Source: Thermoproteota archaeon
GTDB lineage: Archaea; Thermoproteota; Methanomethylicia; Methanomethylicales; JAGHCH01
Assembly (NCBI GenBank): GCA_021160575.1
Contig: JAGHCH010000005.1
Coordinates: 1-34,985, forward strand
Reading direction: 5' to 3'
DNA length: 34,985 nucleotides
Part shown: piece by piece, positions 2,481 through 14,398 of the stretch
How positions within the stretch are numbered: position 1 is the first letter of the stretch
How the letters are laid out: every line of letters starts with the position of its first letter
Program-made: the position numbers and the translations under genes
Notes under the pieces: generated by a model
What the model was told of the DNA's origin: nothing
Seen by the model: only the letters and a program-made list of their open reading frames with translations
The model's database searches: none

Positions 2481-2873
2481 CTAATCCTCGACAACTAAGG
2501 GTAATTTAACGCCCTTTCTATTGTAGGCTACTACACAGTACTCTGAGTCGTAGGGGTAAGCAGCGATCAGCATCACTATTCCGAAAAAGTTGTTGAGGTC
2601 TTCTGGTGAAGGAACTGGTATGCCACTTGGATGGGAGTGGTAAGTGCCTATGATTGAGAAGTCTACAGGGAGCATGTGCAGAGGAATTGCTGTGAAGGTT
2701 TCACCGTACTCGGCTAAGGGTGGTATGAGAGCCTCCTCTATCACGACCTCCCCTTTGCGCCGCTTTCCTCGGAGAAGGAAGATGTTCTCTCGTGGATGAG
2801 CTCTTCTAGAGAATTCGAGGAGCCCTTCGAGAACCTCCCTCTTGATCCTCACAGTAAGGTAGTCCTTGGACAT
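2481..2873 (-). CDS. JAB1/MPN/Mov34 (JAMM) domain metallopeptidase
   Basis: GTYHSHPSGIPVPSPEDL = HxHPSG...SxxD JAMM motif; start overlaps upstream mrp stop by 1 nt. Confidence 0.8.
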   Translation of the reverse strand: MSKDYLTVRIKREVLEGLLEFSRRAHPRENIFLLRGKRRKGEVVIEEALIPPLAEYGETFTAIPLHMLPVDFSIIGTYHSHPSGIPVPSPEDLNNFFGIVMLIAAYPYDSEYCVVAYNRKGVKLPLVVED

Positions 2874-3748
2874 TAAGGCTTCTCCTTCTTCCCTCCTTGT
2901 AGGAGGAAGTCCTCAACCTTAGCTACGATGTCCATGAAGGCTTTAGCTGCGGAGGAATCGGGGTGCTTAACTACAAATGGGATTCCAGCGTCAGAGTCCT
3001 CGACTATCCGCGGGTCTAAGGGGATTTTGCCTAGAAAAGGCACGTTCAGCTCTCTGGCAATTTTTTCTCCTCCCCCGGTCTTGAAGATGTCGATTTTAGC
3101 ACCGCAGTTGGGGCAGATGAAGCCGCTCATGTTCTCCAGAATGCCTATCACGGGAACTTTCAGCTCATGGGCAAATATTACAGCCTTCTTCACCACCGCT
3201 TGAGAGACCTCTGAGGGAATTGTTACAATGATGGCTCCGCTCATGCCTGGGATAAACTGAGCGATGCTGAGAGGCTCATCACCCGTTCCTGGAGGAAGAT
3301 CTATTAGGAGGAAGTCTAAAGATCCCCATACCACATCTCCTAGGAACTGCCTTATCGCGGCGGTTTTTAGAGGACCTCTCCAGACTACTGGTACCTCTTC
3401 GCTGGGCAGCAGAAAACCCACTGAGACTATCCGCATGCCTAAGGGGCCTTTCACGGGGAAAATTCCTGGAGGACCCACCTCCAGCCTAGCACCTTGTAAT
3501 CCCAGCAGCTTGGGGATCGTCGGTCCATGGATGTCGGCGTCTAGGATGCCTACTTGGTAGCCTTTCATGGCAAAGGCTGCAGCGAGGTTTGCTGTTACCG
3601 TTGACTTACCTACACCTCCCTTGCCGCTGAGAACTGCTATCTTAAATCTAACTTTGGACATGCGCTTCCGGATCTTTTGAAGATCCTCCTGAAATCGCTT
3701 GAAAGCCTCTTGCCTAGCTTCAAGAGAACTCTGAGGAGTACTCTGCAT
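2873..3748 (-). CDS. Mrp/NBP35 family P-loop ATPase (Fe-S cluster carrier)
   Basis: Deviant Walker A GKGGVGKSTVTANLA, DADIHGPTIPKLLG, DLPPGTGDEPL, CPNC motif. Confidence 0.9.
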   Translation of the reverse strand: MQSTPQSSLEARQEAFKRFQEDLQKIRKRMSKVRFKIAVLSGKGGVGKSTVTANLAAAFAMKGYQVGILDADIHGPTIPKLLGLQGARLEVGPPGIFPVKGPLGMRIVSVGFLLPSEEVPVVWRGPLKTAAIRQFLGDVVWGSLDFLLIDLPPGTGDEPLSIAQFIPGMSGAIIVTIPSEVSQAVVKKAVIFAHELKVPVIGILENMSGFICPNCGAKIDIFKTGGGEKIARELNVPFLGKIPLDPRIVEDSDAGIPFVVKHPDSSAAKAFMDIVAKVEDFLLQGGKKEKP

Positions 3749-6032: not shown

Positions 6033-6137
6033 TTCACCAACGGGGGCTTAAGGTATTGAAAACTGAAAAATAAGCTTTTTGAGAATTAAAGATTAAGGGG
6101 ACCAACGCTCAAAGCGAGGATGGTGGGTGGAATTTGC

Positions 6138-6620
6138 ATGGAGTTGAAGGTCGTTGAGTTGAAAATCCCAGAAGGTTGCAATATCATAGTGGGGCAGTCT
6201 CACTTCATTAAGTCGATTGAGGACATCTACGAAGCGATGGTGAACTCTGTTCCAGGAGTTAAGTTCGGCTTGGCATTCTGTGAGGCTTCGGGAAAGCGGC
6301 TGGTGAGAGTTGAGGGGACGGACGAGGAGCTAAAGAAGACGGCTGTGGAGAATGCGCTGGCAATAGGTGCTGGGCATAGCTTTGTGCTGTTGATGAAGGA
6401 TGCATACCCCATCAACGTGCTGAACGCCTTGAAGCATGTGGTGGAAGTGGTGTCCATTTACTGTGCAACGGCTAACCCGGCGAAGGTGATCATAGCAGAT
6501 CTAGGCGAGCAGAGGGCTATCCTAGGCGTCGCTGATGGATTTACTCCTAGAGGCGTGGAATCCGAGAAAGATGTTGCTGAAAGGAAAGAGTTCCTAAGGA
6601 GAATAGGGTATAAGCGGTGA
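6138..6620 (+). CDS. Adenosine-specific kinase family protein (DUF355-type)
   Basis: MELKVVELKIPEGCNIIVGQSHFIKSIEDIYEAM...GHSFVLLMKDAYPINVLNALKHVVEVVSIYCATANPAKVII; ATG at 6138 is preceded by a GGTGGGTGG SD-like sequence (track start 6120 less likely). Confidence 0.8.
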   Translation: MELKVVELKIPEGCNIIVGQSHFIKSIEDIYEAMVNSVPGVKFGLAFCEASGKRLVRVEGTDEELKKTAVENALAIGAGHSFVLLMKDAYPINVLNALKHVVEVVSIYCATANPAKVIIADLGEQRAILGVADGFTPRGVESEKDVAERKEFLRRIGYKR

Positions 6621-6757
6621 TTCAAGGTATAAGTAAAAAGTTTAAGTATTGCTTGGTAACTCCAATTTTTCCTCGGAGCGTAGCTGAATGTCTCTTAGTG
6701 GATGTAGCTTCTCGCCTCCTTCTCTGCTTAATAGCAAAGAAGAGGGGTTAGAGGCCC

Positions 6758-7138
6758 TTGCAGAGAGAGCAACGTAAGAAATGCACTCCTACATGCCCAT
6801 TCTTCAGATGCGGCCAAAAGGCCTTAGTAAAGCCGGGTTTTGGCAGGGAGAAGTTTGGTAAGGATCAGTTTAGGCGCGGCGGCCCAAGAAGCTTTTCGAG
6901 GCATCAAGAGGTGAAGGAACCTTGGTGCATGTGGACCAACGATGTCTGTATAGGCTACAAGTGCAGCTATGCCTTCTGCGAGAAAAGAGCTCTCCTACCA
7001 GATGGCACTTGCAGCTTAGAGGCTAGGACAATATCGCAGAAAACTAGGAGCATAGAAGAGGAGGCTAGAGCCGAAGAAAGCGTGATGCGCCAAGCGAGGC
7101 AGAAGCTGCTACGGAGGGGCTACGACTTCATAGAATAG
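6758..7138 (+). CDS. Cysteine-rich (putative metal-binding) protein of unknown function, TTG start
   Basis: 126 aa with 8 Cys: CTPTCPFFRC...WCMWTNDVCIGYKCSYAFCEKRALLPDGTC. Confidence 0.65.
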   Translation: MQREQRKKCTPTCPFFRCGQKALVKPGFGREKFGKDQFRRGGPRSFSRHQEVKEPWCMWTNDVCIGYKCSYAFCEKRALLPDGTCSLEARTISQKTRSIEEEARAEESVMRQARQKLLRRGYDFIE

Positions 7139-7183
7139 CGGCAAAACCCATAAATTAAGGAGCTTTGAGAGGAAATGTGGAGC

Positions 7184-7259
7184 GCCGGGGTGGCCGAGCG
7201 GCATAGGCGGCGGGCTGCAGACCCGTTCCACCAGGGTTCGAATCCCTGCCCCGGCTCCA
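7184..7259 (+). tRNA. tRNA-Cys (anticodon GCA), CCA encoded
   Basis: Cloverleaf: acceptor GCCGGGG/CCCCGGC, anticodon arm GCGGG-CTGCAGA-CCCGT, T arm CAGGG-TTCGAAT-CCCTG, discriminator U73, encoded CCA; intronless. Confidence 0.95.
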
Positions 7260-7420
7260 TCTTCTTCCCAACGTCTTCTATGTCGGCTTAGAGATCTTTC
7301 CTCTCTCTTTTACGGCAATGTCGCTTCTCCTTGAGAAGGAAAAGCTCTTTATGGCCAAGGGGATTGAATTTTCAAGGCGGGTAATCTATTGTCTCGAGGG
7401 ATCGCTAGGTGAGATAGACC

Positions 7421-8611
7421 ATGTCGCTGGAGAGATTTAGGGAGATACGAAGAGAGGTGCATGAGGATGAAGTTATCAACTTGAACCCCATTCAGCGGGG
7501 AGGCGTTCTGACTCCGGCTGCTCGTAGAGCTTTGGTGGAGTTTGGAGATGGGTATTCGATCTGTGATCGCTGTCCTCCCAAGACTCCTAGGCTCGATATG
7601 ATTGAGAGACCTCCTGTAAAGTCGTTCTACGAGGAGCTGGCAAAGTTTCTCGGTTTAGATGTGGCGAGAGTTGTGACTAGGTGTAGGGAGGCGATGTTCA
7701 TAGCCTTATACATGCTCGGTGATAGAGGGGGCTACGTGGTTCTCGATAGCTTGGCCCACTACTCAACATACCTTGCAGTGGAGCTGGCTAGGATGAAGGT
7801 GAAGGAAGTACCTAACACTGGCTATCCGGAGTTCAGAGTTGAGGTTGAAAAGTATAAGGAGAAGATTGAAGAGGTAATTGATGAAACTGGCGATCCGCCG
7901 GTTGCCGCTGTCTTGACGCATGTTGACTCCTATTACGGGAATTTAGCTGATGCGAAGGCTGTTGGGGAGATCTGCAAGAGGTATGGAGTGCCCTTCATCT
8001 TGAATGCTGCCTACACAGCTGGAGTAATGCCAGTTAACGGCAAAGAACTTGGAGTAGATGTTCTGGTGAGTAGTGGTCATAAGAGCTGGGCTGCTTCAGC
8101 CCCCACAGGCATTCTGGCTATGACGGAGGAGATGGCACAACGTATCTTGAAGACCTCTGAGATCAAAGGAGATCTTACTGGGAGAAGCTTCCCGGTAAAG
8201 GAGCTTGGCCTTCTGGGCTGCACTGTTATGGGGGCGCCTCTCGCCACTTTGATTGCAAGCTTTCCAGATGTTGTGGAGAGAGTTAAAAGATGGAGTGAAG
8301 AACTGGAGAAGGCCCGCCACTTTGCCAGTGAGATGGAGAAGATTGAGGGAACTAGGCTTTTGGGAGTAAAGCCTAAGATGCACACCTTGATGCACTTCGA
8401 ATCCATGGGTTTCTACAAGGTTTCTCAAAGCCATAAAAGAAGAGGCTTCTTCCTCTACGATGAGCTGAAGAAAAGGAAGATTTACGGAATCCAGCCCGGC
8501 TTAACGAAGCACTTCAAGCTGAATACCTATGGCTTAAGCTGGGATCAAGTGAGATACGTAGCCTCGGCATTCAAGGAGATAGCGGAGAAATATGGTTTAG
8601 AGGTGGTCTAG
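7421..8611 (+). CDS. pscS: O-phospho-L-seryl-tRNA:Cys-tRNA synthase (SepCysS)
   Basis: INLNPIQRGGVLTPAARRALVEFGDGYSICDRC N-terminus and PLP-Lys region SSGHKSWAASAPTGIL typical of SepCysS; SD AGGTGAG before ATG. Confidence 0.92.
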   Translation: MSLERFREIRREVHEDEVINLNPIQRGGVLTPAARRALVEFGDGYSICDRCPPKTPRLDMIERPPVKSFYEELAKFLGLDVARVVTRCREAMFIALYMLGDRGGYVVLDSLAHYSTYLAVELARMKVKEVPNTGYPEFRVEVEKYKEKIEEVIDETGDPPVAAVLTHVDSYYGNLADAKAVGEICKRYGVPFILNAAYTAGVMPVNGKELGVDVLVSSGHKSWAASAPTGILAMTEEMAQRILKTSEIKGDLTGRSFPVKELGLLGCTVMGAPLATLIASFPDVVERVKRWSEELEKARHFASEMEKIEGTRLLGVKPKMHTLMHFESMGFYKVSQSHKRRGFFLYDELKKRKIYGIQPGLTKHFKLNTYGLSWDQVRYVASAFKEIAEKYGLEVV

Positions 8612-13828: not shown

Positions 13829-14398
13829 ATGAAGGTCGTTTTGTGCATAACCGGAGCCAGCGGTGTAGTCTACGGCGTTAGAATTCTTGAAGAGTTGGCT
13901 AAGAGGGGGCATGAAATCGATCTCATCGTGACGCAAGAGGCAGAGAAGCTTCTAAGCTATGAAGTTGGAATAGAGGTGGAGGAGTTAAAGAAATGGGCGT
14001 CGCACCTATACCGTGAAGACTACTTAGAAGCGCCCATTGCCAGCGGCTCACAGAAATTTGATGCTCTAGTTATTGCCCCTTGCAGCATGAAGACAGCCGC
14101 GGGCATCGCGCACGGATATGCCGAGAACTTGGTGTTGAGGACTGCAGACGTGGCCCTCAAGGAGGGTAGAAAGCTGATACTGGTGGTTAGAGAGGCCCCC
14201 CTCAACGCTATTCACTTGGAGAACCTCTTGAAGCTGTCAAAGATAGGAGTTCACGTAGTTCCAGCCGCTCCAGGATTCTATGGAAGACCTAGAAGCGTTG
14301 AAGATCTGGTCAACTTTATTGTGGGGAAGGTGTTGGATCTCCTAGGAGTGGAGAATGACCTTGCTCCTCGCTGGAGTGGCTTTCACTCTTCTGGATAG
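13829..14398 (+). CDS. ubiX: UbiX-family flavin prenyltransferase
   Basis: VVLCITGASGVVYGVRILEELAKRGHEIDLIVT, SGSQKFDALVIAPCSMKTAAGIAHGYAENLVLRTADVALKE, LVVREAPLNAIHLENLLKL. Confidence 0.93.
   Translation: MKVVLCITGASGVVYGVRILEELAKRGHEIDLIVTQEAEKLLSYEVGIEVEELKKWASHLYREDYLEAPIASGSQKFDALVIAPCSMKTAAGIAHGYAENLVLRTADVALKEGRKLILVVREAPLNAIHLENLLKLSKIGVHVVPAAPGFYGRPRSVEDLVNFIVGKVLDLLGVENDLAPRWSGFHSSG

Follow-up and report, generated by a model that had tools for sequence, protein, structure and literature searches.

A tRNA-Cys/SepCysS locus of the RNA-dependent cysteine pathway in a Methanomethylicia archaeon and its probable bystander, a conserved eight-cysteine protein

Introduction

The closest described counterparts of the locus reported here belong to the RNA-dependent cysteine pathway of methanogens and TACK archaea, in which SepRS and SepCysS serve tRNA-Cys (PMC5424206, PMC8762117). 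Three cysteines of SepCysS have been implicated in persulfide or Fe-S formation, and an insertion found in most archaeal SepCysS clades was described by Mukai et al. (PMC5424206). Loci in which tRNA-Cys is followed by SepCysSn and SepCysS have been published for Bathyarchaeota BA2, and the adjacency of tRNA-Cys and SepCysS has arisen in further groups as well as in Bathyarchaeota (PMC5424206). A Taw1/TRAX/EndoV/RFK cluster has been published for SepRS, and the "most complete" SepRS cluster was reported for Verstraetearchaeota among others (Mukai et al. 2022, PMC8762117).

The window analyzed here is a stretch of 34,985 nucleotides from a genome (1.40 Mb in 131 contigs, 92% complete) of the class Methanomethylicia (Ca. 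Methanomethylicota, formerly Verstraetearchaeota). A first-pass annotation had placed a tRNA-Cys gene, a SepCysS gene and an upstream ORF encoding eight cysteines, hereafter called the 8-Cys gene, in one functional neighborhood. The window was compared with its own family (f1) and the sister family Methanomethyliaceae (f2), which together form the order referred to below, with the other families of the class, and with Thermoproteota genomes in general.

Results

The 8-Cys gene, tRNA-Cys and SepCysS are collinear on the + strand in that order, at the positions first assigned to them, as borne out by ORF, ARAGORN and profile results (Table 1). The SepCysS match to TIGR02539 exceeds the cut-off of 365 bits and spans residues 15-391, as is required of a curated full-length member, and the protein can be aligned over its full length with the enzymes of M. 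jannaschii and A. fulgidus (3wkr, 2e7i). In this alignment the PLP lysine, Lys221 in the motif SGHKS, is kept along with Cys48, Cys51 and Cys267. An eight-residue insertion at positions 248-255 matches the insertion of most archaeal SepCysS clades (PMC5424206).

Table 1. Features of the tRNA-Cys/SepCysS locus and its upstream flank.
Feature	Positions in window	Strand	Basis and remarks
Adenosine-specific kinase family gene (PF04008)	6120..6620	+	Pfam, 249 bits; upstream neighbor, syntenic in the order; cluster c2 in sister-family loci
Predicted TATA-like elements 5' of the 8-Cys gene	6622..6651	+	Weight-matrix scores
8-Cys protein gene, 126 aa	6758..7138	+	Unannotated family conserved in Thermoproteota; considered a bystander
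BRE/TATA-like element of tRNA-Cys, ATAAAT at -34	7143..7159	+	Offset as in the sister family
tRNA-Cys(GCA), U73, G37, CCA encoded	7184..7259	+	ARAGORN, RF00005
Spacer between tRNA-Cys and SepCysS	7260..7420	+	Site of the SepCysSn gene in the sister family; gene absent here
SepCysS, 396 aa	7421..8611	+	TIGR02539, 525 bits; alignment to 3wkr and 2e7i

tRNA-Cys(GCA) is the one tRNA gene that ARAGORN detected in the window. Its anticodon loop reads CUGCAGA, and inspection of the sequence confirmed the previously noted U73, GCA anticodon and G37, which are the features asked of a tRNA-Cys of the RNA-dependent pathway, as well as an encoded CCA. G37 and U73 are shared with the tRNA-Cys of methanogens and TACK archaea. 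It is also the single tRNA-Cys gene among the 36 typed tRNA genes of the genome; these were Rfam matches typed one by one, with introns allowed for refractory cases. Many of the genes could be typed only when an intron was allowed (contigs C35, C10, C106, C119, C23, C25 and C78).

Before tRNA-Cys, the sister family keeps a TATA-like element with the sequence AATAAATA at about -33, to which an element at -34 corresponds in the window. Training of the promoter weight matrix drew on a small number of related tRNA-Cys promoters from the sister family. The matrix overfits, and only the match in position was used; the highest scores of this overfitted matrix within 6600-7440, which about 0.04% of window positions reach, fall upstream of the 8-Cys gene. 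Judged from these motifs, tRNA-Cys appears to have a promoter-like element of its own. The orientation of the three window genes permits shared transcription. In the sister family, however, an antisense ThiF/MoeB-like gene intervenes between the 8-Cys gene and tRNA-Cys, so a shared transcript of these two is not the conserved state. This ThiF/MoeB/UbaA-like adenylyltransferase gene, seen near SepCysSn-SepCysS at L069:1581-2327 and likewise in other sister-family loci and not in the window, is a possible sulfur-carrier link to SepCysS.

In the order, tRNA-Cys lies directly before SepCysS in 20 of 20 intact loci; the corresponding count for a distance of up to 1.5 kb is 0/8 in the remaining families of the class. 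The adjacency is beyond chance. In 19 sister-family genomes a gene of about 56-63 aa, with its start about 12 nt after tRNA-Cys, precedes SepCysS, and the three genes form a tight run. Because its profile matches the N-terminal domain of MJ1481 (SepCysE) with an E value of 5e-8, the encoded peptide was identified as SepCysSn. A search of the window genome for SepCysE, suggested by the first-pass annotation, and for SepCysSn, either of which would mark a transsulfursome, detected neither in the 92% complete assembly; the best match (E 0.53) fell in an unrelated ORF, and the spacer before SepCysS holds no such gene. The window genome differs in this from the pathway as described in methanogens and TACK archaea, although SepCysSn could sit in the missing 8%. 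Elsewhere in the class, a SepCysSn-like domain lies in frame at the SepCysS N-terminus in family f7 (G032:C22, G031:C90; weak scores), and a small stand-alone SepCysSn-like ORF lies far from SepCysS in family f9 (G036:C2:231891-232031); the linkage of SepCysSn therefore changes within one class.

Like the Bathyarchaeota BA2-type loci (PMC5424206), the window has tRNA-Cys directly before SepCysS, and the sister family likewise has SepCysSn between the two; the window differs in that SepCysSn is missing and SepRS is not in the same operon. Since such loci have already been published, the arrangement is known in kind and is here found in a new archaeal family. Inherited gene order, without shared regulation, might account for the adjacency: the entire neighborhood of adenosine-specific kinase, 8-Cys, tRNA-Cys, SepCysS, TrpRS and UbiX is syntenic throughout the order, the predicted promoter would serve tRNA-Cys separately, and 161 nt separate tRNA-Cys from SepCysS in the window. 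The recurrence of the adjacency in Bathyarchaeota and other groups and the short distance at which SepCysSn starts in the sister family argue against this explanation, which has some weight and is not the favored one. The expectation that the neighborhood would be conserved in relatives held within the order, but the three-gene set of 8-Cys, tRNA-Cys and SepCysS is confined to that order.

The 8-Cys gene begins with TTG, and its product contains eight cysteines with the pattern CX3CX4C...CX6CX4CX4CX10C, all eight being invariant among the aligned members of the family. It had been called an ORFan, a label that does not stand: relatives were found in 34 of the 40 class genomes, among them each of the 21 near-complete ones, and a profile search gave one match per genome in 288/398 Thermoproteota genomes. 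No Pfam, NCBIfam, PHROG or PDB family was found to cover the protein, and the literature gave no description of a crenarchaeal 8-Cys or EndA-linked family. A Pfam Atracotoxin match, present in one of 21 members with an E value of 0.004 and below the cut-off, was taken as a chance match of cysteine spacing. Identity with SepCysE or SepCysSn was rejected, as no similarity was found and the true SepCysSn is a separate peptide of the sister family; identity with a known ribosomal or other solved protein was likewise rejected after a PDB profile search gave nothing. An apparent 951-aa fusion of the 8-Cys domain in genome G161 proved to be a translation read through a masked run of N. The AlphaFold2 model (pLDDT 56, pTM 0.29) was too poor for a fold search, and predicts, with the same poor quality, a basic C-terminal helix. 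The protein is probably metal-binding.

Neighbors of the gene were surveyed in 53 loci outside the class, sampled one per genus or family where possible. EndA, the tRNA-splicing endonuclease, was within two genes in 28/53 loci, where it directly precedes the 8-Cys gene on the same strand; UbiX was within two genes in 21/53 and ThrRS in 9/53. In several families of the class, the 8-Cys gene is followed by a nucleotidyltransferase gene and ThrRS, with ThrRS near 8-Cys in three class loci. Two cluster types recur: many Thermoproteota have PhoU/DUF47-like - EndA - 8-Cys - UbiX, others sugar kinase - 8-Cys - ThrRS (both covered by L126:6073-7701, L114, L193 and 25 further loci), and nothing was found in the literature on EndA - 8-Cys - UbiX or 8-Cys - ThrRS clusters of Thermoproteota. 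The 8-Cys family in these clusters is the same as that of the window, where by contrast neither EndA nor ThrRS adjoins the gene. A UbiX-like flavoprotein gene does occur in the window at 13829-14398, 7 kb from the 8-Cys gene, and because UbiX is its direct neighbor in many Thermoproteota, this copy may be left over from an earlier arrangement of the genes.

These surroundings make a tRNA or translation role plausible for the 8-Cys protein, insofar as gene order and sequence are a guide. It might be an unrecognized tRNA-maturation or translation factor of Thermoproteota in general, binding zinc or an Fe-S cluster and, according to lineage, situated next to EndA, ThrRS or tRNA-Cys/SepCysS, in which case its closeness to tRNA-Cys/SepCysS would be a tRNA-linked placement and not that of a bystander. 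The position directly 3' of EndA in over half of the sampled loci, ThrRS in nine more and in the three class loci, and the predicted basic helix are consistent with such a role. UbiX, sugar kinases and nucleotidyltransferases are, however, equally regular neighbors, and no domain or fold match lends the idea weight, the model being too poor. It is considered possible but rather unlikely, and a bystander remains the preferred view of the gene in this locus.

The pathway was followed through the remainder of the genome. SepRS, whose absence would have told against the first-pass proposal, is present on a separate contig (G000:C78:8485-10062; 650 bits, cut-off 381), and both it and SepCysS are clear homologs of the characterized enzymes (PMC5424206, PMC8762117). 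It sits in the same cluster as that published (PMC8762117), in the series Taw1-like radical SAM, TRAX/translin, SepRS, endonuclease V and CTP-dependent riboflavin kinase (RFK). A search for CysRS, also suggested at first pass, did not find it in the 92% complete assembly, and no cysteine synthase scored above the cut-off there. With SepRS present and neither of these detected, SepRS/SepCysS is the only charging route found, and hence probably the sole source of Cys-tRNA in the cell and perhaps of cysteine. RNA-dependent cysteine synthesis, as originally proposed, is thus supported by the presence of SepRS, the failure to find CysRS and the conservation of the tRNA-Cys/SepCysS pair across the order.

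Because the assembly is 92% complete, CysRS or CysK could sit in the missing parts. That CysRS does exist in the missing 8% would accord with the division of the assembly into 131 contigs and with a short CysRS-like gene in most sister-family genomes. It is nonetheless improbable: CysRS is also absent from G029 and G030 of the sister family and from the two f7 genomes, each with a completeness of 90% or more, so that its absence is common in the class. The short CysRS, of about 387-421 aa, was seen in SepRS/SepCysS-bearing Methanomethyliaceae (G009:C4, G023:C6, G011:C3, G024:C7 and G028:C37, loci L163-L167, and others) and may not be a tRNA synthetase but some different Cys ligase.

Whether the 8-Cys protein belongs to the same functional neighborhood as an accessory sulfur or metal protein, as proposed, was weighed by co-occurrence. 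SepCysS was found in 39/398 Thermoproteota genomes and the 8-Cys family in 34 of those 39; 254 of the 288 carriers of 8-Cys are without SepCysS. Across all 398 genomes the two are weakly associated (odds ratio 2.8, p=0.04), an effect that the class itself accounts for and that disappears once the class is left out (odds ratio 0.71, p=0.74). The two distributions are therefore independent and do not support the proposal. One genome 99% complete, G006 from the family of Ca. Culexarchaeum, has 8-Cys and CysRS, without SepRS or SepCysS. Families of the class beyond f1 and f2 that carry SepCysS have it on another contig than the 8-Cys gene or 30 kb or more away from it. The eight invariant cysteines and the conserved closeness to tRNA-Cys/SepCysS inside the order notwithstanding, a role of the 8-Cys protein as a dedicated sulfur or Fe-S partner, feeding the persulfide or cluster of SepCysS, is very improbable, given these 254 genomes, the missing association outside the class, the lack of linkage in other class families, and EndA and ThrRS as its neighbors in many other lineages.

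Discussion

The preferred reading, held with a probability of roughly 85%, is that the window contains the tRNA-Cys/SepCysS half of the RNA-dependent cysteine pathway, that SepRS is encoded elsewhere in the genome, and that the 8-Cys gene is a bystander. By analogy with the characterized homologs, on which the proposed chemistry rests, SepRS from the TRAX/EndoV cluster would charge tRNA-Cys with phosphoserine, and SepCysS would turn the tRNA-bound phosphoserine into cysteine, sulfur replacing phosphate via PLP with the three conserved cysteines as the likely sulfur carrier. The Cys-tRNA would then be used in translation, and might also supply free cysteine. Of the three-part functional unit first envisaged, the conserved tRNA-Cys/SepCysS pair stands, and membership of the 8-Cys protein, with its independent distribution, is unsupported. 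The simplest reading of the 8-Cys gene is a bystander held in place by inherited gene order, and its product probably has no part in RNA-dependent cysteine synthesis; the persistence of the gene close to SepCysS in all parts of the order is compatible with a lineage-specific link as well.

The RNA-dependent cysteine pathway is hereby extended to a further family of Methanomethylicia in which no other charging route was found, and gain or loss of SepCysSn and CysRS is documented within one order. A tempting functional link between 8-Cys and SepCysS is removed as unsupported. Interest now centers on the 8-Cys family, which is strictly conserved in Thermoproteota, falls outside the family libraries searched and lies near tRNA genes or tRNA enzymes in many lineages. 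Elsewhere in the window, at 2481-3748, a JAB/JAMM-domain gene (PF14464) abuts a Mrp/NBP35 P-loop ATPase-like gene on the same strand, a possible Fe-S or sulfur-carrier related pair.
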